From: a virus
IMG/VR virus record: IMGVR_UViG_3300033153_008680
Span: 1-38,042 of that record
Reading direction: 5' to 3' (one strand)
Length of the DNA: 38,042 nt
In this document: positions 1-18,061 of the stretch, one piece after another
How the letters are laid out: every line of letters begins with the position of its first letter
How positions within the stretch are numbered: position 1 is the stretch's first letter
Made by a program: the position numbers and the translations under genes
The notes under the pieces: generated by a model
What the model saw: the letters and a program-made list of their open reading frames with translations, nothing else
Databases searched by the model: none
What the model was told of the DNA's origin: nothing

Positions 1-280
1 AAGTGGACCAGCTAAAAACAACGCGCAAGATTAGCATGGTGTCAGATGTATTATTAACAAGCAGCACAAAATCGGGCACGACCTCTACAGTAAAAGAATA
101 ATTAAAATTTGAACTTTGTGAAAGCGCGAACCCGTCGCCCGCCCCGTCGATATATTCAACCGTATAATTACCGGCCTGGTAATTATAGACTGAATAACTG
201 ACAGTATACTCCGGGGGGTCATACTCGTAACCCTCGCACCCGATAAAAACAAACAGTAAAGCAGCAATTAAATTTTTCAT
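1..280 (-). CDS. Lipoprotein, 5' part (continues at 37981-38042 across the window ends)
   Basis: The gene reads leftward from ATG at 280 and is still open at base 1. It begins with Lys after Met, a hydrophobic stretch and a lipobox-like FIGC, so Cys15 is the predicted lipidated residue. The mature part is beta-rich with many Tyr, Asn and Ser (YEYDPPEYTVSYSVYNYQAG). The ATG overlaps the stop of the upstream 59-aa gene (ATGA) and a GGAG lies just before it. If the window ends are joined, the frame continues for about 20 codons to a TAA at 37981, giving a product of about 113 residues. Probably an envelope lipoprotein expressed early; a role in superinfection exclusion is possible but is only inference. 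Confidence 0.75.
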   Translation of the reverse strand, partial: MKNLIAALLFVFIGCEGYEYDPPEYTVSYSVYNYQAGNYTVEYIDGAGDGFALSQSSNFNYSFTVEVVPDFVLLVNNTSDTMLILRVVFSWST

Positions 281-1027: not shown

Positions 1028-1092
1028 TACTTTTCCCCCAGCATTATTATTTTTTTTTCAAATTCTTTTACATCAAATTCAAGATTTTTCAT
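1027..1092 (-). CDS. 21-residue micro-ORF coupling polymerase and methyltransferase
   Basis: ATG at 1092 overlaps the polymerase stop as ATGA, and the TAG at 1027-1029 overlaps the methyltransferase GTG as TAGTG. The peptide (MKNLEFDVKEFEKKIIMLGE and one more Lys) is highly charged and probably helical. It has the SD AAAGAGGT, which lies inside the polymerase 3' end. Tight coupling at both ends argues for translation, perhaps as a coupler for the GTG-started methyltransferase. No function is recognised. Confidence 0.5.
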   Translation of the reverse strand: MKNLEFDVKEFEKKIIMLGEK

Positions 1093-1126
1093 TTGTGATA
1101 CCTCTTTGATATTTCACTTTCTGTCA
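1085..1126. repeat. 42-bp direct repeat, copy B (polymerase 3' end)
   Basis: This copy overlaps the last codons of the DNA polymerase (TESEISKRYHK) and its stop. It is 41/42 identical to 449-490, where the same bases are non-coding leader. Copy B is therefore the probable parent of the duplication. Confidence 0.9.
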
Positions 1127-3005
1127 GCAACGGAAAGCCCGGCAGCCACGCGGGCGCCGTGTTCATAATCTTGTCAAACTTTACCCGCGCGGCCTTTGCC
1201 GTGGCGGTTTTAATCTGGCATAGTATTTCATCGTGACAATGTAATACAGGGTTTAATTCCTGCTTATCGCATTCAAGCATACATTCAACCAGTATATCCC
1301 GACACATTGCCTGCGTGACGTTTTCAGCAAGCAGGCCGCCCCATATTCTGACCCGCCGGTTTTGTGAGTGGTTCCAATAGCTCGCCCCCTGGCCGTCGAT
1401 TTTAACGTTATGATAATACAACCAGCGCCCTGAGGGTAAAAGAATTTTAACGTAATTGTTTTCCCCCTTGACGGTTAAATATTTCCCGGTCTTAATTTCT
1501 TTTTTTGCTTTTCGCCCACCCCAGGCAGCCATAAAAGCCCGGTTTAATTCGTACCAAAAATTGACAATCTCAGTATATTTCCCCCGGTAAGTTTTCACAA
1601 TATCCGAGGCAACGCGCTCGTCTTCAGGCAAACCATAACCGGCCATCATTGCAGTAATACCCCCGACCCCCGCACCGTACCCGCAGGATAAAATCCCAAC
1701 CTTTCCAACCGTCCGGGCCTTGTCCGATTTCTTTACTTTCGCCGGGTCCAGGTTATAAATGGTCGCGCCCATTGAGATATACACATCAACACCGCGGGCA
1801 AAGTCTTTGATTAAATCATCTTGACCGGCCAGGTACGCAATGCCCCGCGCCTCGATTGCGGCAAAGTCACCGATTAAAAAAGTTTCCCCCGCGGGGGCTT
1901 TTATTAAACCGGGTAAAATGGTTTTACCCGCCTGGATAATTTCAGGGTATGGCATTTTATCATTCAGCCCTTTTATGGCCGCGTCGATTTCCTTTGTACT
2001 CGTTTTTGTTTTTGGCAGGTTATGGGGTTGAAACCCCGCCCCGGACCACCGTCCGGTGTGCGCGCCGAAGTAGCGTAAAAAGTACCGGATCTTATTATCA
2101 GGCGACAAGGCTATTTTTAAAGTGCTATATTTCTTGACGCTCGCCTTTGCTAAAAATTGACGTAATTCCAGCACCCGCACCGCCTGGGGGTGTGCTTGTA
2201 TTTTCTTATTATTAAAAGCGGCCTCTACGGTAAGGGCTTTCAAATCGGGGAGCTTTACCCCGATTTTAGAAAAATACTCTTTCATTTGGTTACCGCTGCG
2301 CGTGTTTACTCCTATTTTTTCCGCTTCTTTTTCCGCCCGCGCGGTTGCCGTTTCAAAGAGTTTTAAAAACTTATTCAGGGCGGCAACGTCCACGGGCAGG
2401 CCTTTTACATTCTGCTTAAAATCGAGCTCAAACACTTCCCGCTCCAGGGGCCCGTTGGATAAGCCTTTTAAAACTTCATAACATTGACTATCTGCCAGCA
2501 CGTCCGCACGGCAATAATCAAACATTAAATTTTTATCCTCGCCTTTTAACTCGCGAAAATACTTTATCTGCTTTTTTTTATCTGTCACGGGCTTACTGTA
2601 TTTATTGATTAAACCCTTGCCCGCGTCTAATTTCTGCTGGGCAACCCCCAGGGCCGCGGCCCCTTTTTCAAGCGAGCCGGGCAACCCCACGCATAAAGAC
2701 AGGGCGCGGGTACATATCCAGCGGGTGGGCTCGGCCATAAAATCGGGAAACCCATACCGCGGGATAAGTATATTTTTTATCATAGCATACTCAAAAAGCG
2801 CATACCGGGCGACGTACCCCGCGGGCGTTTTAAATGTATCGGGCACGGGGTCGCCGGGATACCACCCCACCGCGTCAGGCATGTCAGGTGTTTTATAGTA
2901 CATACAAAAAATATCTGTACTGGTATCCTCAGCGTACCGCCACGCCCCCGCCTTTGTCAAGTCAACCATTGACCGGGTTTCAAAGTCAAGATTTATCGTT
3001 GTCAT
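1089..3005 (-). CDS. Family A DNA polymerase with 3'-5' exonuclease domain
   Basis: A 638-residue replicative polymerase. The N-terminal DEDD exonuclease domain shows Exo I (LDFETRS, Asp7/Glu9), an Exo II-like region (YALFEYAMIK, about 68-77) and Exo III (YCRADVLAD, about 164-172). The polymerase domain shows GRWSGAGFQPHNLPK (about 318), motif A GDFAAIEARG (about 379), motif B ARTVGKVGILSCGYGAG (about 430-446) and motif C HDEI (about 591). It should extend primers on phage DNA with proofreading. There is no 5' nuclease domain, as usual for phage members of this branch. The start has a strong SD (GGAGGGG) and overlaps the upstream gene by ATGA. It works with the primase-helicase and SSB encoded on the other strand. 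Confidence 0.96.
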   Translation of the reverse strand: MTTINLDFETRSMVDLTKAGAWRYAEDTSTDIFCMYYKTPDMPDAVGWYPGDPVPDTFKTPAGYVARYALFEYAMIKNILIPRYGFPDFMAEPTRWICTRALSLCVGLPGSLEKGAAALGVAQQKLDAGKGLINKYSKPVTDKKKQIKYFRELKGEDKNLMFDYCRADVLADSQCYEVLKGLSNGPLEREVFELDFKQNVKGLPVDVAALNKFLKLFETATARAEKEAEKIGVNTRSGNQMKEYFSKIGVKLPDLKALTVEAAFNNKKIQAHPQAVRVLELRQFLAKASVKKYSTLKIALSPDNKIRYFLRYFGAHTGRWSGAGFQPHNLPKTKTSTKEIDAAIKGLNDKMPYPEIIQAGKTILPGLIKAPAGETFLIGDFAAIEARGIAYLAGQDDLIKDFARGVDVYISMGATIYNLDPAKVKKSDKARTVGKVGILSCGYGAGVGGITAMMAGYGLPEDERVASDIVKTYRGKYTEIVNFWYELNRAFMAAWGGRKAKKEIKTGKYLTVKGENNYVKILLPSGRWLYYHNVKIDGQGASYWNHSQNRRVRIWGGLLAENVTQAMCRDILVECMLECDKQELNPVLHCHDEILCQIKTATAKAARVKFDKIMNTAPAWLPGFPLLTESEISKRYHK

Positions 3006-4586: not shown

Positions 4587-5726
4587 CTATGAAATTTTAT
4601 TGAACGGCTGCTCACGTTCAACGAGTTTTTTTATTTTTGGCGAGTCATAAAGATCCGCGATATTTTCTTTACCCGCCAGCTTTTCCATTTGTGCGGGTGT
4701 TTTCAAGTCGCGGGGTTTATACATATCGTCGCCCAAAAAAGAGAGTTTTTTCTCAGCGTCTTTTTTGTCTATCCAGCGACGGTGACCGCTGGAAAGTGCA
4801 ACAGTGAGCAGATCAAAGGGTGCGCCCGTCCCGATACGATCAAACAGAACACCCTCGACAGCCTTAAAATATGTTTCAACCAGGGGTTTTAATAGGTAAA
4901 GTTTTTCAAGCTCGCCCGTGGCAATGTCAACAGGGGCCGCGGGGGCATCGAGAAAACTTTTTGCAAAGTCAACGCGGGCGGCCAGGGCGGGGCATACCAA
5001 AACCGCACGGCAGAAACGACAATGCTCACCGGCGGTCTGGGTGTTTATGTTTTCTTTTATCCGGCTAACCCGTGAAGCTATTAAATGGCTCGCGGAGTGC
5101 CGAGCGAAGCCGGAAAGTACAACAACCTTTTCCGGGTCGTTGTAGTAGTTAGGCTGTACAATGTGCATATTTATATAAAAAGGCTTTTCTTTATCTATAC
5201 CGGAATTGACGAGCCATAAAAGGGCGCCGTATTCGATCTGCAACCCGGCGCTTTCTGAATAATCAAAGTTACCCGTTTTCAGGTCCATGAAGTCAAGATA
5301 TACGGCGTCTTTTGTTTCCGTAACAATTGCGCTGTCAGCCTTTGCCACGCAATCAAAGCCGTCAATTTCTGCCCTGAATTTTTCTTCTATTATATAAGAA
5401 GTCTTGCCCTTATATTTTTTATGCGCGCGGGCTATTTTTTTATAATGTTTCTGGTAATGCTTGACCGCGTTTTCTGCCCGGTCCCAGTCTGCCGAACCTT
5501 TTATAAAACCCGCGTCTTTTAACCATTTAGAGACCGCGCCGGGTTTTACCCCCTGCTTGAACTCTTTAACAAGTAGATCCTCAGCGATATCATGGACTTT
5601 TGTCCCGAAGGTTGCCGCCTCGGTAAAAGGTCTATACTGTAATTCTTCGGGGGTTGACTGTTCCAGACGCAGGGAGCCGGGGCAGTTTGTAGCGCGGTGG
5701 ATGCCGCTTGCTTGTAATTTAATCAT
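4587..5726 (-). CDS. Cas4/RecB-like PD-(D/E)XK nuclease (DUF2800 type)
   Basis: A 379-residue protein. The nuclease core is visible as [20 protein letters not shown] (about 123-142) followed by DFMDLKTGN, which supplies the D and E/D-x-K residues. Cys15 ([10 protein letters not shown]) plus a C-terminal C-X2-C-X5-C ([13 protein letters not shown]) match the four-Cys iron-sulfur cluster pattern of AddB/Cas4-like nucleases. This is the architecture of the phage DUF2800 family. It probably acts in recombination or DNA end processing next to the phage polymerase and SSB. Its ATG overlaps the upstream stop by ATGA. Confidence 0.88.
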
Positions 5727-6109
5727 TGTCGGCCTCTCATTTTTAAGATGTATTCTTTTACGAGCATCTGATTTTCTGTCACAGCCCCGTCATAACCCCC
5801 CGCAGAGAAAAGGCGCCCCTTTTTTGCTCGCGCTTTTAGCGCGTCAAGGGTGGTTTCTTCGGGGTCAAATTGACCCTCAAAGCCATAACAGGAGCAGTGG
5901 CTTCCGTGAACCTCATACAGCCTTCGGGCTTTTTTAAGCAGGAAAAAGGAAGAGGAATCACACCCGTAATCGCCCACGCTTTCGTAAGCAATTAAAATCT
6001 TGTATCCGGCTAAGTCAACAAAGCCCCCGCCCTCGGGGTTATAGCTTACCATAATATGCTTTTTAATCTCTTCAATAGTACACTTGTTTAAATCCGCTAA
6101 CGCTAACAT
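5723..6109 (-). CDS. Conserved phage hypothetical protein, first gene of the leftward operon
   Basis: A 128-residue soluble protein. The central segment RRLYEVHGSHCSCYGFEGQF with following DPEETTLDAL is a well-conserved signature among phage hypotheticals, and its Cys/His residues could bind metal. As the first gene after the divergent promoter (SD AAGGATAAAAG before ATG) it should be among the earliest expressed. Its biochemical role is unknown to me. Confidence 0.75.
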   Translation of the reverse strand: MLALADLNKCTIEEIKKHIMVSYNPEGGGFVDLAGYKILIAYESVGDYGCDSSSFFLLKKARRLYEVHGSHCSCYGFEGQFDPEETTLDALKARAKKGRLFSAGGYDGAVTENQMLVKEYILKMRGRQ

Positions 6110-6143
6110 ATCTTTTATCCTTTATTAGATTTTTATAAATCAG

Positions 6144-6172
6144 AAAATACACCCATATAGAAAAGCTGTCAA
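6144..6172 (-). promoter_or_regulatory. Leftward early promoter
   Basis: On the minus strand, TTGACA (6172-6167) is followed by exactly 17 bases and TATTTT (6149-6144). The -35 box is perfect, the spacing is ideal and the -10 matches 4 of 6. It points at the operon starting at 6109. The -35 lies inside the left arm of the 18-bp inverted repeat. Confidence 0.75.
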
Positions 6173-6219
6173 CCCCTTTTCAGAAAAATTTAAAAAAAAT
6201 CCTGAAAAGGGGTTGACAG
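6166..6219. promoter_or_regulatory. Perfect 18-bp inverted repeat shared by divergent promoters
   Basis: Left arm 6166-6183 (CTGTCAACCCCTTTTCAG) is the exact reverse complement of right arm 6202-6219, with an 18-base A/T-rich spacer. Each arm contains an outward-facing TTGACA. A dimeric regulator binding the arms, or a cruciform, would cover both -35 boxes and switch both operons together. Confidence 0.9.
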
Positions 6220-6239
6220 TATGGGCTTTCTACTATTAA
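6213..6239 (+). promoter_or_regulatory. Rightward early promoter
   Basis: TTGACA at 6213-6218 lies in the right arm of the inverted repeat. The best -10 is TATTAA at 6234-6239 (spacer 15) or TTAAGA at 6236-6241 (spacer 17), so the -10 is weaker than on the other side. It would drive the SSB gene at 6286 and, with readthrough, the replication genes. Confidence 0.6.
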
Positions 6240-6285
6240 GATGTTTTCAATTAACAAATATTATAAATTTATAGAGAGGTTTTAA

Positions 6286-6948
6286 ATGGCTAAAAACAAG
6301 AATGCGTTTTTTATTGGTGACTTAAAGGAAGGTCAATTTGTCGGGTATCGTCTGGCCTTTGCGCCGAACCTGGCCGAAGCTCGCGGATTTAATGAAGAGG
6401 ACAACCGCAAATTTGACGTTACGGTACTTATTCCCAAAACAGATAAAGCGGGCATCAAAAGAATCAAAGATGCTATCAACGGGGCTATTGATAAAACTGA
6501 TTGGAGCGCGGCGGCAAAGACTCAGGTTAAAAAAACTGCATGGGATTTCGACGCCTATAATGATTATTGTATCATGAAGGACGGCGACGCAAAAAACGAG
6601 CGGGCGAAGGACGAAGAGAAAACCGAGTACACCCAGCGGGACGGACACTACACACTAAAAGCTACCAGAAAGGAAAGTTTTGGCCCCCCGACGGTGGTAG
6701 ATAAAGACGCCGAACCTATACCCGGAATCGAACTAAAAGGCGCGATTCAATCGGGGTACTGGGTCAATGTATCGGCAAACGTTTACTGCTATGACTTCAA
6801 CGGCAAAAAAGGCGTTTCTCTTCAATTTGACGCAGTGCAGTTAGTAAAAGAGGGCGAGATTTTCGGGCAGTCTAACCCCTTTGAAGCCATCGACATTGAG
6901 GCCGAAGTGGTAGAAACGGAAAGCGCAGAAAGCCCATTTAATGAGTAA
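6286..6948 (+). CDS. DUF2815-type single-strand DNA-binding protein
   Basis: A 220-residue protein with the hallmarks of the phage DUF2815 group: an N-terminal beta segment (FVGYRLAFAPNLAEA), a middle region with KFDVTVLIPK, and a C-terminal GYWVNVSANVYCYDFNGKKG ... VSLQFDAVQLVKEGE. The end is acidic and finishes ESPFNE, like the partner-recruiting tails of SSB and T7 gp2.5. It should coat single-stranded DNA and recruit polymerase or nuclease. It has a strong SD (AGAGAGG). A strong terminator directly follows, so this gene is probably expressed at a higher level than those downstream. Confidence 0.87.
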   Translation: MAKNKNAFFIGDLKEGQFVGYRLAFAPNLAEARGFNEEDNRKFDVTVLIPKTDKAGIKRIKDAINGAIDKTDWSAAAKTQVKKTAWDFDAYNDYCIMKDGDAKNERAKDEEKTEYTQRDGHYTLKATRKESFGPPTVVDKDAEPIPGIELKGAIQSGYWVNVSANVYCYDFNGKKGVSLQFDAVQLVKEGEIFGQSNPFEAIDIEAEVVETESAESPFNE

Positions 6949-6976: not shown

Positions 6977-7011
6977 CCCGTGGGGCCCTATGAGCCCCAC
7001 GGGAATTTTTT
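6977..7011 (+). terminator. Intrinsic terminator after the SSB gene
   Basis: Stem CCCGTGGGGC (6977-6986), 7-base loop, GCCCCACGGG (6994-7003), then AATTTTTT. It is a perfect 10-bp G/C-rich stem with a six-T run. No promoter is obvious before the next gene, so downstream expression depends on readthrough or antitermination. Confidence 0.92.
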
Positions 7012-7026
7012 ACAAAGGAAAACAAA

Positions 7027-7230
7027 ATGAAAACAGCGCGAAGTATTCACGCGTATCTAACCGAAGAAGAACACGAACAGGTTGACCGTACAATTGAAAA
7101 ATTGCGGACGGTAGGCAAGGGCGCGGCAAAAATTAACAAAGGCGACGTCGGTGCTGCCCTTTTAATGGTAGCAATTGAGGACATAAATTTTATTGCAAAG
7201 GTCCGGGCATACCTGACCACGGGGGAATAA
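7027..7230 (+). CDS. Small hypothetical protein, possible ribbon-helix-helix
   Basis: A 67-residue protein. It starts with a short basic strand (KTARSIHAYL), then a charged helix (TEEEHEQVDRTIEKLRTVG) and a second helix (KGDVGAALLMVAIED). That order resembles small ribbon-helix-helix DNA-binding proteins, though I cannot confirm it. It has an AAAGGA SD and its stop overlaps the next start (TAATG). If it binds DNA it is a candidate ligand for the divergent inverted repeat. Confidence 0.65.
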   Translation: MKTARSIHAYLTEEEHEQVDRTIEKLRTVGKGAAKINKGDVGAALLMVAIEDINFIAKVRAYLTTGE

Positions 7231-8028: not shown

Positions 8029-8231
8029 CAATACATTATACAAACGAACACGGGCGCGCGCTATGCAACCACGCGGGATTCTATTCCAGCCGTACAAAGG
8101 ACCCGGACGCCGTGACGTGCCGGTCATGCATGAAAGCCCTGGCCGGTGAGGCGGCACGCGTCCGAGAGCGCGAGAGTTGGGGAGAAACAAACCGCGAGGG
8201 GTCAACCGGATATCGGACAGGGAGTAATTAA
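8025..8231 (+). CDS. Small zinc-finger-like hypothetical protein (68 aa)
   Basis: Cys and His residues are spaced as in a zinc-binding unit: ALCNHAGFY and, about 20 residues on, VTCRSCMKALAG. The C-terminal tail is Arg/Glu/Gly rich and probably disordered (EAARVRERESWGETNREGST). It overlaps the upstream gene by ATGA. It resembles the short phage proteins that sit before HNH or helicase genes; function unknown. Confidence 0.65.
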   Translation: MTIHYTNEHGRALCNHAGFYSSRTKDPDAVTCRSCMKALAGEAARVRERESWGETNREGSTGYRTGSN

Positions 8232-8232
8232 A

Positions 8233-8733
8233 ATGAAGGTAAAAATAAATACCTATTTAGTAGCTTTATCGCAAAATAAATTTGCTCAGGTAGACCCCGA
8301 GGGCTGGGAAAAAGTAAAGGCTTTTAAGTGGAGCTACGCGGTCACTGGATACGCAGTACGCAGTCATCGGGATAAAAAAACAAAAGAAAAGCAAGTAATA
8401 ACAATGCACCGAGTTTTATTAAACGCCAAAAAGGGTCAAGTATCTGACCATATTAACGGGGATAAATTAGATAACAATTTTTCTAATTTGCGAATATGCA
8501 CACAAAGTGAGAACGTAAAAAATCGGACGGGGGTCAATAGAACATCAAAATATAAAGGGGTATCCTGGGAAAAAAGACGCAACAAGTGGCTCGCCAATAT
8601 AAGCAGCGATGAAAAACGTATCTACTTAGGCCAATACGAGACAGAAAAAAACGCGGCCTTAGCCTACGATAAAGGGGCTTTAAAATACCATAAAACTTTC
8701 GCGCGCTTAAATTTCCCGGAGAGTATTAAATAA
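8233..8733 (+). CDS. HNH homing endonuclease with AP2 domain
   Basis: A 166-residue protein. An HNH_3-type nuclease core spans about residues 58-95 (MHRVLLNAKKGQVSDHINGD, then LDNNFSNLRICTQSENVKNR). It is followed by an AP2-like DNA-binding domain (SKYKGVSWEKRRNKWLANI, then YLGQYETEKNAALAYDKGAL). This is the standard HNH-AP2 free-standing homing endonuclease of phages. I chose ATG 8233 because GGGAGTAATTAAA precedes it and the alternative longer frame lies inside the upstream gene. It sits directly before the helicase with no gap, as if it had inserted into an existing small-gene/helicase junction. Confidence 0.92.
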   Translation: MKVKINTYLVALSQNKFAQVDPEGWEKVKAFKWSYAVTGYAVRSHRDKKTKEKQVITMHRVLLNAKKGQVSDHINGDKLDNNFSNLRICTQSENVKNRTGVNRTSKYKGVSWEKRRNKWLANISSDEKRIYLGQYETEKNAALAYDKGALKYHKTFARLNFPESIK

Positions 8734-10319: not shown

Positions 10320-10514
10320 ATGAACACTATTACATTTAAGCTATTTGACGAGGATTTAGAACCGGCCTATACGGAGCATGATATTTTCTTGACTGAGCAG
10401 GGTTATATTTATCTTAATGGTGTAATGCCTGAAAACCGAGTGCCCGAAGAGTTTTTAAAAGGTATGTTTTTAGAAATTACCGTCGGTGCTGCATGTTTTC
10501 GGGTTGCGCTATGA
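10320..10514 (+). CDS. Small hypothetical protein (64 aa)
   Basis: A beta-rich protein starting MNTITFKLFDEDLEPAYTEH. It starts one base after the previous stop and overlaps the deformylase start by ATGA, so translation is probably coupled. Function unknown. Confidence 0.6.
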   Translation: MNTITFKLFDEDLEPAYTEHDIFLTEQGYIYLNGVMPENRVPEEFLKGMFLEITVGAACFRVAL

Positions 10515-10963
10515 AATTTAAAATAATACCAAACGAGCAAACACCCGCGGTAATTTACCCGGAAACAGCCGAAGGGCTAATAAGAGAAAACTTCCTTTTA
10601 TACTGTAAATTTTTACCCTTCGCCCGGCGGCAGCATAACTGCGTGGGGCTGGCGGCCAACCAGGTGAGGGTTGACGGGGCCCGGATTATGGCCCCCTTTT
10701 TTGCTATTCAAGAAACCCATTTTTGGGATATTGTAATTTATCCGAAAATTGAGAAATACGAGGGGGCGCCAGAGATAAAAACAGAGGCTTGTCTAACCTG
10801 GTTAGGCAAAAAGCTACAGGCCCCCCGCTGGCCTGTTATACAGGTTAGTTACTACAAACTAAACGGGCAGCGGGTACGGGAGCGCGTCGCGGGCTTTAAA
10901 GCGCAAATATGGCAACACGAATACGATCATCTTACCGGCGTAAAAGAAAATATAATAGACTAA
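10511..10963 (+). CDS. def: Phage peptide deformylase
   Basis: A 150-residue metalloenzyme with all three deformylase motifs in order: CVGLAANQ (44-51), EACL (92-95) and HEYDH (136-140). Predicted metal ligands are Cys94, His136 and His140; Glu137 is the catalytic base and Gln51 is present. It should remove the formyl group from new N-terminal Met. Motif 2 reads EACLTW instead of the bacterial EGCLS, and the protein stops about ten residues after HEYDH. It therefore lacks the C-terminal helix of bacterial enzymes, as in the minimal deformylases known from marine phages. I chose ATG 10511 because it overlaps the upstream stop by ATGA. Confidence 0.92.
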   Translation: MKFKIIPNEQTPAVIYPETAEGLIRENFLLYCKFLPFARRQHNCVGLAANQVRVDGARIMAPFFAIQETHFWDIVIYPKIEKYEGAPEIKTEACLTWLGKKLQAPRWPVIQVSYYKLNGQRVRERVAGFKAQIWQHEYDHLTGVKENIID

Positions 10964-14879: not shown

Positions 14880-15059
14880 ATGAAAGTGAATTTTAAGTTT
14901 AATAATGGCGAGGTTGTTATTAACCGCCATAACAAGGCGGGGTTTGTTTCTATGTGCGCGGTACAGGAAGGTGAGCTTAACCCGTCCTATTATGTTAAAT
15001 ATGAGACAAGTGAAGGCTGGGAGCAAGAAGAAAATTTGAGGGGCAAAGACGAGCTATAA
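14880..15059 (+). CDS. Small SH3-like protein between terS and terL (59 aa)
   Basis: The frame MKVNFKFNNGEVVINRHNKA to RGKDEL is 59 residues. The pattern FNNGEVVI, GFVSMCAVQEG, SYYVKYET, EGWEQEENL fits a small beta barrel. I chose ATG 14880 because GAGGTG lies before it; an ATG four codons earlier is inside that SD. The stop overlaps the terL start (TAATG). It resembles in fold the KOW-like proteins at 3718-4169. Function unknown. Confidence 0.65.
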   Translation: MKVNFKFNNGEVVINRHNKAGFVSMCAVQEGELNPSYYVKYETSEGWEQEENLRGKDEL

Positions 15060-16555
15060 TGCCCCCTGAAATTGACATTGACCTACCCGCGGCGGCGCGT
15101 GCTGAATGGGCTTTTCGACAGCTGGCCCGCCGCCAGGTAGGGTATTTTATAAAGTACACATATCCGAAGTACTCCTTGACCCCCTTCCATACGGTATATA
15201 ATAAAATTCTGACGCTTTACGCGAAAGGTATTATTAAGAAGTTAATAATTACCGTCCCGCCGCAGCACGGGAAATCAATTAGTTCAACCCGGAGCTTGCC
15301 CGCCTTTATGCTGGGCCATAACCCTGAGTTAAGGGTTGCCGTTGTATCCTATTCTACTGATAAGGCCCGCCGGTTTGGCCGGCAGATCCGCGGGGTAATG
15401 GGTAGCGAGGAGTATGCAAGGCTTTTTCCTGGTACAAAATTACCCGAACCGCGGGACACGACCTATACAAACAGCTCCGATATAGTCGATATATTAGGGG
15501 GCCCGGAAAAAGGGAATCTGTTCTTGACCGGGCGCGGCGGGGGCCTGACCGGCGACCCCGTGGACATTTTAATAATGGACGACATGTATAAAAACGCCAG
15601 CGAGGCAAACAGTCCGGTAATAAGGCAAAATATCATAGACTGGTATAATATGGTTGGGGATTCCCGCCTGCATAATGATTCGCAGCAGCTAATAGTTTTT
15701 ACCCGCTGGCATGATCAGGACCTGGTCGGGTATATACAAAAAACTGAGGGCGTCACGTTATTAGAAAGCAACGAACAGCTCGCCAATATAGATCCTGATA
15801 ACTGGTATATGATAAATTTTGAGGCCCTGAAAGAATCAGACCCCACGGAGTTGGACCCCAGGGCCGAGGGTGAGGCGCTATTCCCGGAAAAGCACAGCGC
15901 TAAAAAGTTAGGCAAGACTAAGAAAAGACTTTTACAGGGCGACGCGGAAAATTGGCGTTGTTTATACCAGGGCGACCCGCGGCCCATAACAGGCCTATTA
16001 TACGGCCAGGGCTTTAAAGAGTATGAGAAAACGCCCGAAGATATAATTGAACGTCTGGCCTTTGTTGACGTGGCTGATAAGGGGAAAGACTGGCTATGCG
16101 CTATTGCCGGCGATAAAGGGGCCGATAATTTTATATACCTGAAAGATGTATATTATACACCGGACCCCGGAGACGTGACCGAACAGGCAACCGCTACATT
16201 TTTAATCAGTAATAATGTAGACCGGGCGGTCATTGAGAGCAATGCCGGGGGCTCATTTTTTGCGCGCAATGTCGAGCGGATACTCAGGGAGCGGGGCAGC
16301 ACTTGTATTATCGAGCCTCGGTGGGAAGGCAGCAACAAAGAAAGCCGTATAATTACCGGGGCCGCCTCGGTTATGCGTACCGTTTTAATGCCTATTAACT
16401 GGGCGGGCAGGTTCCCGGCCTTTGCGGGCGACATACTGGGGTTTCGGAAACTGTTTGGGGCAAACACCCGCGACGATGCACCGGACGCGCTACAGGGCTT
16501 ATATACGGCGTCCGGGCTCGGTGGGGGCATGGACTTTATAGTTGAAGTGGTTTAA
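15059..16555 (+). CDS. terL: Terminase large subunit
   Basis: A 498-residue packaging motor. The ATPase has Walker A TVPPQHGKS (65-73), Walker B DILIMDD (168-174) and the coupling segment LIVFTRWHDQDLVG. The RNase H-like nuclease shows AFVDVADKGKDW (first Asp), RAVIESNAGG (Glu) and DDAPDALQGLY (last Asp). It cuts concatemers and drives DNA into the prohead through the portal. The TAA overlaps the stop of the convergent gene at 16552, so nothing separates the two transcripts. Confidence 0.97.
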   Translation: MPPEIDIDLPAAARAEWAFRQLARRQVGYFIKYTYPKYSLTPFHTVYNKILTLYAKGIIKKLIITVPPQHGKSISSTRSLPAFMLGHNPELRVAVVSYSTDKARRFGRQIRGVMGSEEYARLFPGTKLPEPRDTTYTNSSDIVDILGGPEKGNLFLTGRGGGLTGDPVDILIMDDMYKNASEANSPVIRQNIIDWYNMVGDSRLHNDSQQLIVFTRWHDQDLVGYIQKTEGVTLLESNEQLANIDPDNWYMINFEALKESDPTELDPRAEGEALFPEKHSAKKLGKTKKRLLQGDAENWRCLYQGDPRPITGLLYGQGFKEYEKTPEDIIERLAFVDVADKGKDWLCAIAGDKGADNFIYLKDVYYTPDPGDVTEQATATFLISNNVDRAVIESNAGGSFFARNVERILRERGSTCIIEPRWEGSNKESRIITGAASVMRTVLMPINWAGRFPAFAGDILGFRKLFGANTRDDAPDALQGLYTASGLGGGMDFIVEVV

Positions 16556-16950: not shown

Positions 16951-17166
16951 TTAATCTACGTATAAATGTAAAATTGTACCCTCGCGGTGTGTGCAGAACC
17001 CCGCTTGTATTGCCTGCTCCCTCATGTATCTTAAGGGGTTATTTGTCTTTGCCATGTCTATCTTTATTGATTTCTGCCCCCTGTTTACGGCTAACATAAA
17101 TTCTGGATCTTTTGAGGCCTTTTCAAGCGCCTTTTTTACGGCGCTGGTTTTATCTTTTGTTGTCAT
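16951..17166 (-). CDS. Small hypothetical protein of the inverted cassette (71 aa)
   Basis: The N-terminal half is a charged helix (KTSAVKKALEKASKDPEF). The second half resembles a short alpha/beta unit (KSIKIDMAKTNNPLRYMREQ, then GTILHLYVD). I chose ATG 17166, as AAGAGG lies 8-9 bases before it; a TTG three codons upstream is possible. It overlaps the XRE gene's 3' end. No family is recognised; its place right after the regulator would suit a partner or effector protein. Confidence 0.65.
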   Translation of the reverse strand: MTTKDKTSAVKKALEKASKDPEFMLAVNRGQKSIKIDMAKTNNPLRYMREQAIQAGFCTHREGTILHLYVD

Positions 17167-17368
17167 TATCGTCAACCTCTTGCATTATTTTAATCATACG
17201 CTCTATGCTCCAACGTGTGCGCCCGGCCATAAAGGCTGATATCTCAGGCTGTTTTGTCCCTATTGCCTCAGCGGCCTTTGTTTGATCCGGGAAGGTTTTA
17301 ATGTATATTTTTACTTCCTCGGTGAGTATGGCCCGCAGGCGCGTTAATTTATCGGTTGTTATTGTCAT
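17150..17368 (-). CDS. XRE-type helix-turn-helix regulator (72 aa)
   Basis: Residues about 27-62 (DQTKAAEAIGTKQPEISAFM, then AGRTRWSIERMIKIMQ) match the HTH of the small Cro/HigA2-like XRE class: helix 2 ends in AIGTKQPEIS and is followed by the fourth helix. It should bind an inverted repeat as a dimer. The best candidate is the 8-bp-arm repeat inside the cassette promoter at 17996-18017, which would give autorepression. Its ATG overlaps the upstream stop by ATGA. It may be the antitoxin-like or repressor member of this cassette. Confidence 0.85.
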   Translation of the reverse strand: MTITTDKLTRLRAILTEEVKIYIKTFPDQTKAAEAIGTKQPEISAFMAGRTRWSIERMIKIMQEVDDNDNKR

Positions 17369-17995: not shown

Positions 17996-18024
17996 AATAT
18001 AAGACATCACTTATATTCTGTCAA
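17996..18024 (-). promoter_or_regulatory. Promoter and operator of the inverted cassette
   Basis: On the minus strand, TTGACA (18024-18019), a 17-base spacer and TATATT (18001-17996) form a near-consensus promoter. The spacer plus -10 contain a perfect inverted repeat AATATAAG-N6-CTTATATT (17996-18017), so a bound dimer would block RNA polymerase. The XRE regulator two genes down is the obvious candidate ligand. Confidence 0.85.
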
Positions 18025-18061
18025 GCCTTTTCCTTTAAAAGTGAATTTTTTTATTTAAGTA

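Follow-up and report, generated by a model that had tools for sequence, protein, structure and literature searches.

The divergent region and its inverted repeat

Replication genes in the window (the whole stretch of 38,042 nucleotides of viral DNA analysed here) lie on both strands, and a gap of 176 bp is the sole gap that separates those read leftward from those read rightward. The leftward unit, on the minus strand, opens with a gene for a 128-aa protein (5723-6109), whose PHROG relatives have no clear function, and includes genes for a DUF2800/phage exonuclease (exo; 4587-5726, phrog_69), a family A DNA polymerase (pol; 1089-3005, phrog_17), and an MT-A70 methyltransferase. The rightward unit, on the plus strand, begins with the gene for an Enc34-type ssDNA-binding protein (ssb; 6286-6948, PF10991/phrog_112) and also encodes an SNF2-type helicase and a VapE-like primase. 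Shine-Dalgarno-like leaders precede the first genes of both units. An HNH endonuclease with an AP2 domain, likely a homing endonuclease, is encoded inside the rightward replication unit (8146-8733), and a peptide deformylase-like protein is also phage-encoded (10493-10963). The second rightward protein (7027-7230, 67 aa) resembled a ribbon-helix-helix regulator by eye, an assignment that was rejected for want of family support and on a poor structural model.

The gap contains a perfect inverted repeat with 18-bp arms at 6166-6183 and 6202-6219, complementary at 18 of 18 positions (100%). The left arm is CTGTCAACCCCTTTTCAG on the top strand; read leftward, on the minus strand, it presents the operator-like module CTGAAAAGGGGTTGACAG, with a -35 hexamer TTGACA at 6172-6167. 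The right arm presents the identical 18-bp module read rightward on the plus strand, with TTGACA at 6213-6218. Between them lies an 18-nt spacer (6184-6201; AAAAATTTAAAAAAAATC), to which no strand is assigned and which is A/T at 17 of its 18 positions, with two A-tracts. The first-pass annotation had described a perfect 18-bp repeat with an A/T-rich 18-base loop and an outward TTGACA in each arm, and these particulars are confirmed.

The same annotation had called the repeat unusually perfect, an impression borne out by comparison with resampled sequence. No other perfect inverted repeat in the 38 kb window has arms of at least 12 bp separated by at most 60 nt. When the intergenic region was resampled 5000 times under a Markov model, perfect arms reached 14 bp at most, and 60 resamples of the whole window gave the same maximum. 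The 18-bp repeat is far above chance expectation. Given both -35 hexamers, the probability that the 12 aligned non-hexamer arm positions match by chance is about 8e-7 at local composition. Among 1.3 Mb from 91 phage loci there are 16 perfect repeats of at least 14 bp, none of which has TTGACA inside (0/16). Arm identity ends sharply at the arm boundaries, where flanking similarity falls near background, and the internal dyad of a single arm is marginal (5 of 9 pairs, counted by hand). The arm ends form a LexA-like CTG-N12-CAG; the Escherichia coli LexA site is CTG-N10-CAG, and the candidate was discarded for its wrong spacing. Rfam and tRNA scans were empty. That the repeat arose by chance, or is a transcribed terminator-like hairpin, is barely credible: the presence of a hairpin, and nothing further, speaks for this explanation, but the repeat is far longer than those in shuffled sequence, its loop is 18 nt, and the predicted transcripts both start outside it. 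It does not have the form of an intrinsic terminator, a transcribed hairpin in which a short loop is followed by a T run.

Predicted promoters and a third copy of the module

Each outward -35 hexamer is accompanied by a -10-like hexamer with 4 of 6 matches: leftward, TATTTT at 6144-6149 (minus strand), 17 bp from TTGACA; rightward, TAAGAT at 6237-6242 (plus strand), 18 bp from TTGACA. The divergent gap thus holds outward -35/-10 pairs with the 16-18 bp spacing expected of a divergent sigma70-type promoter pair, and sites of the TTGACA-16..18-TAnnnT type number 6 in the window against 0.8 expected. The element had been bounded at 6144-6241, of which the left end stands and the right end is one base short, since the rightward -10 finishes at 6242. 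These predicted features support the proposal of divergent promoters between the exo/pol genes on the left and the ssb/helicase/primase genes on the right, and the repeat would carry two outward, putatively early promoters. Predicted transcription starts fall near 6137 and 6249, 112 bp apart and both outside the repeat; given these starts, the -55 edges of two polymerases would meet at the dyad. The A/T spacer, which lies upstream of both -35 boxes, is possibly a shared UP element. Judged against the promoter consensus, arm identity extends well beyond the predicted promoter elements, with GGGG, CTG, and a trailing G also common to both arms, and GGGG precedes TTGACA in only 1 of 27 strong promoters of relatives' loci.

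Downstream of ssb, a strong intrinsic-terminator-like hairpin (6977-7003, plus strand; 10-bp stem, AATTTTTT tail, -22.7 kcal/mol) begins 29 bp past the gene and before the next rightward gene, and no good promoter was seen between the hairpin and that gene. Because the rightward unit meets this hairpin directly 3′ of ssb, simultaneous switching of both halves of the replication gene set, as first proposed, is not given, and the claim is weakened. For the same reasons ssb may be the main gene served by the rightward promoter, the remaining genes being reached by readthrough or antitermination; the arrangement suggests a separate ssb transcript supplemented in one of these ways.

A third, solitary copy of the module, P3, lies on the minus strand at 17996-18031 (AAAAGGCTTGACAG; module core at 18031-18018), where TTGACA and a -10 hexamer TATATT, 17 bp apart, form the predicted promoter of a leftward gene cassette. 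In the window the pattern AAAAGG-N1..3-TTGACAG has exactly three occurrences, namely the two arms and P3. None turned up in 100 shuffles, a figure that overstates the strength of the pattern, which was picked after the sites were seen, and 1.75 Mb of phage loci from elsewhere likewise contains none. Each of the three copies is located at an intergenic sigma70-like promoter, in the same orientation relative to transcription. Compared with the arms, P3 has a one-base difference in length as well as substitutions, and the wider P3 sequence shows no significant similarity to either arm promoter. The repeat is therefore probably two copies of an asymmetric module comprising an upstream box plus the -35, each oriented with its own promoter, and not a palindromic device. 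An asymmetric module placed at divergent promoters must yield an inverted repeat, and no function of the symmetry itself has to be assumed; and since a third, solitary copy sits at another promoter, the symmetry is probably a by-product.

The first-pass annotation had offered a cruciform transition as a switch. Divergent transcription concentrates negative supercoils between promoters, and this supercoiling could extrude the repeat, hide both -35 boxes and lower both units. The perfect 18-bp arms give a strong single-strand DNA fold, and extrusion would be energetically favourable below about sigma -0.025 to -0.03 in a 5 kb domain by a rough estimate from textbook constants. The spacer argues the other way: at 18 nt it is far above the usual cruciform loops of 3-6 nt and outside the 0-8 bp range within which repeats are screened as cruciform-forming (PMC6060812). 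Since the entire spacer must melt before extrusion (PMC3834812), A/T melting competes with it. A cruciform, which would need an 18-nt loop, is thermodynamically borderline and kinetically unlikely. A solitary module copy such as P3 cannot act by extrusion. A switch that lowers both units in this manner is very unlikely; extrusion would bury both -35 boxes and not activate them. Even more improbable is that the symmetry itself is functional, the extruded repeat being a self-limiting, protein-free switch that balances both replication units.

It is likewise highly improbable that the repeat belongs to a replication origin, acting there as an initiator site or as a hairpin. Divergent replication genes flank it on both sides and the cumulative GC skew has its minimum at about 6 kb, but the change in gene strand accounts for the skew change, no direct-repeat families (iterons) were found in 5700-6700, the arms coincide exactly with the -35 boxes, and the third copy is far from the replication genes.

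Gene order in relatives and outward pairs in other phages

Wherever both genes were detected in a relative's locus, exo lies ahead of ssb in the same orientation (144 of 144), and pol and ssb are co-oriented in 145 of 145, although many of these loci are near-duplicates and the independent cases are fewer than 144 and 145. The placement of exo and ssb on opposite strands in the window is unusual because of this uniform co-orientation. Gene order suggests that ssb has moved across the promoter region, where it seems to have its own predicted promoter and terminator; this is the rarest feature of the locus and interrupts an order of genes that the relatives found otherwise keep constant. Neither a divergent exo/ssb arrangement nor a similar repeat was found in the 160 loci from pol and ssb alignment searches (0/160), no near relatives were found by DNA search or by single-sequence search with ssb or exo, and the exact two-arm 28-base pattern is absent from 84,980 genomes.

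Relatives of the structural genes point in several directions. For the terminase (15059-16555), the nearest relatives are an IMG/VR contig (47%) and Rikenellaceae prophages (46%), the latter matches having come from a query biased to Bacteroidales; portal and capsid have relatives other than those of the terminase, and the genome may be a mosaic. A Bacteroidota host, suggested by the Rikenellaceae matches, is not favoured: Bacteroidota-type promoters are at background, and Shine-Dalgarno cores, which precede 24 of 43 genes against a 7% background, count against it. One terminase relative (contig L027, 46-47% identity) is without detectable exo, ssb, or pol and without an outward TTGACA pair. 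Just upstream of its late genes the same contig carries, at 340-413, a perfect inverted repeat with 19-bp arms and a 36-nt loop, unrelated in sequence.

A looser outward pair, TGTCAACCCC-N12..42-GGGGTTGACA, is present in 24 viral contigs, which we grouped into about 8 families, compared with 2 contigs for the inward pair. Good -10 boxes are found on one or both sides in several of these contigs, and back-to-back promoters of this predicted type recur among phages. The flanking genes, which include a helicase gene (L004) and an HTH_17 gene (L012), are mostly not regulators, and the outward-pair families therefore do not confirm operators. No other case of 18-bp arms at two promoters was found among them, the 18-bp arms in L009 and L015 being without -10 boxes. 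In an unrelated contig, L032, the exact 18 bp is present a single time, where it lies at a promoter that has a perfect TATAAT. In L115 (17060-17142), two copies of TGTAAACTTTCTCTGT lie 31 bp apart and are closely followed by an inverted one, an operator-like arrangement.

Several of these observations are compatible with constitutive back-to-back promoters, in which a preferred -35 and its context would have been duplicated in inverted orientation when ssb moved, with no dedicated regulator. The displacement of ssb relative to all 144 relatives, its organization as a promoter-ssb-terminator unit, the identity of the arms with no similarity outside them, and the single occurrence of the same 18 bp at the TATAAT promoter of L032 all favour this explanation. 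A pure duplication should carry its flanks, yet identity stops exactly at the arms; the retained bases include positions that sigma70 does not use; and the third copy lies at the promoter of a cassette that encodes an HTH protein. We regard constitutive promoters as possible but rather unlikely.

A candidate regulator and known phage switches

The cassette downstream of P3 (16552-17955) is read leftward between terminase and portal, has its own predicted promoter, and contains genes for an Ala/Ser/Gly-repeat protein, a probable HTH protein, a 74-aa protein with a TTG start, and a DUF7448 protein. The HTH protein (17150-17368, minus strand, 72 aa) is probably of the XRE type, on the evidence of a profile match to phrog_2339 (E=4.9e-7); its match to HTH_3 (PF01381; E=0.002, 18.4 bits) falls below the Pfam cut-off of 23. 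Single-sequence AlphaFold models of it were poor, and a fold search was empty. No other HTH match came from the scan, which covered the early and small proteins and part of the structural proteins, and this protein is the best candidate for a common, autoregulated repressor of the three modules. DNA binding is also possible for the terminase small subunit and for the HNH-AP2 endonuclease.

The explanation that we hold to be on balance probable is a back-to-back pair of sigma70-type promoters in which each -35 falls within the asymmetric module. Host RNA polymerase would transcribe outward from them, reading the exonuclease/polymerase unit to the left and ssb to the right. Both promoters would share the A/T spacer as an UP element, with two polymerases just fitting at the dyad. 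A phage protein, most likely the XRE-type HTH protein of the P3 cassette, would cover the -35 boxes and repress both promoters, and would also shut down its own promoter at P3. The sequence features, the module copies and the HTH similarity are directly established, and from them we infer promoter activity, binding, repression and timing. The earlier suggestion of one regulator for both promoters is plausible on this evidence, given the identical module over both -35 boxes, and it is the simultaneity of switching that has lost ground.

Such control would have precedents. The lambdoid OL/OR regions combine a small HTH regulator (CI/Cro), divergent or paired early promoters, and operators over promoter elements, the operators being tandem near-palindromes that adjoin the repressor gene. 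The proposed control is alike in its small HTH regulator and in operators over elements of early promoters, but there would be one largely asymmetric copy per promoter in place of multiple palindromic operators, and the HTH gene is 11 kb away. The pLS20 conjugation switch (PMC4207663) places divergent promoters under one regulator, as proposed here, whereas its promoters overlap and involve DNA looping and the present ones do not overlap. In phage phi29, protein p4 has sites over the -35 of the early promoters A2c and A2b and represses both; the sites are imperfect inverted repeats, CTTTTT-15-AAAATG, and p4 also activates the late promoter A3 (PMC3100819). The likeness lies in one phage protein over the -35 boxes of two early promoters, but the p4 consensus over the -35 is absent from 6110-6285, and no match to a p4-like protein was found among the proteins scanned, a kind of scan that small proteins can escape. 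Repressor sites of L5-type phages are asymmetric, with an orientation that follows transcription; some lie in promoters, and more than 20 sites of 13 bp are present (PMC9283540). The asymmetry and orientation of the module (3 of 3 copies aligned with transcription) resemble these operators, but here there are three core copies, all at predicted promoters, as against more than 20 sites genome-wide, and the sole HTH candidate has 72 aa whereas the L5-type repressor is a two-domain monomer of about 180 aa. Because defining tests of both the p4 and the L5 families failed, the locus is assigned to neither; by analogy, its mode of action would come closest to that of phi29 p4, in which the site for a phage repressor covers the -35 at each of two early promoters.

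The locus is most likely a neat instance of a type of phage switch that is already well known, rather than a novel device. Early control in this uncultivated phage can be drawn as a compact, testable scheme of three -35-overlapping modules and one candidate regulator. What looks like a striking 'palindrome' between divergent genes can be no more than a single asymmetric promoter module present in two copies, which is a caution against taking inverted repeats for structural switches.
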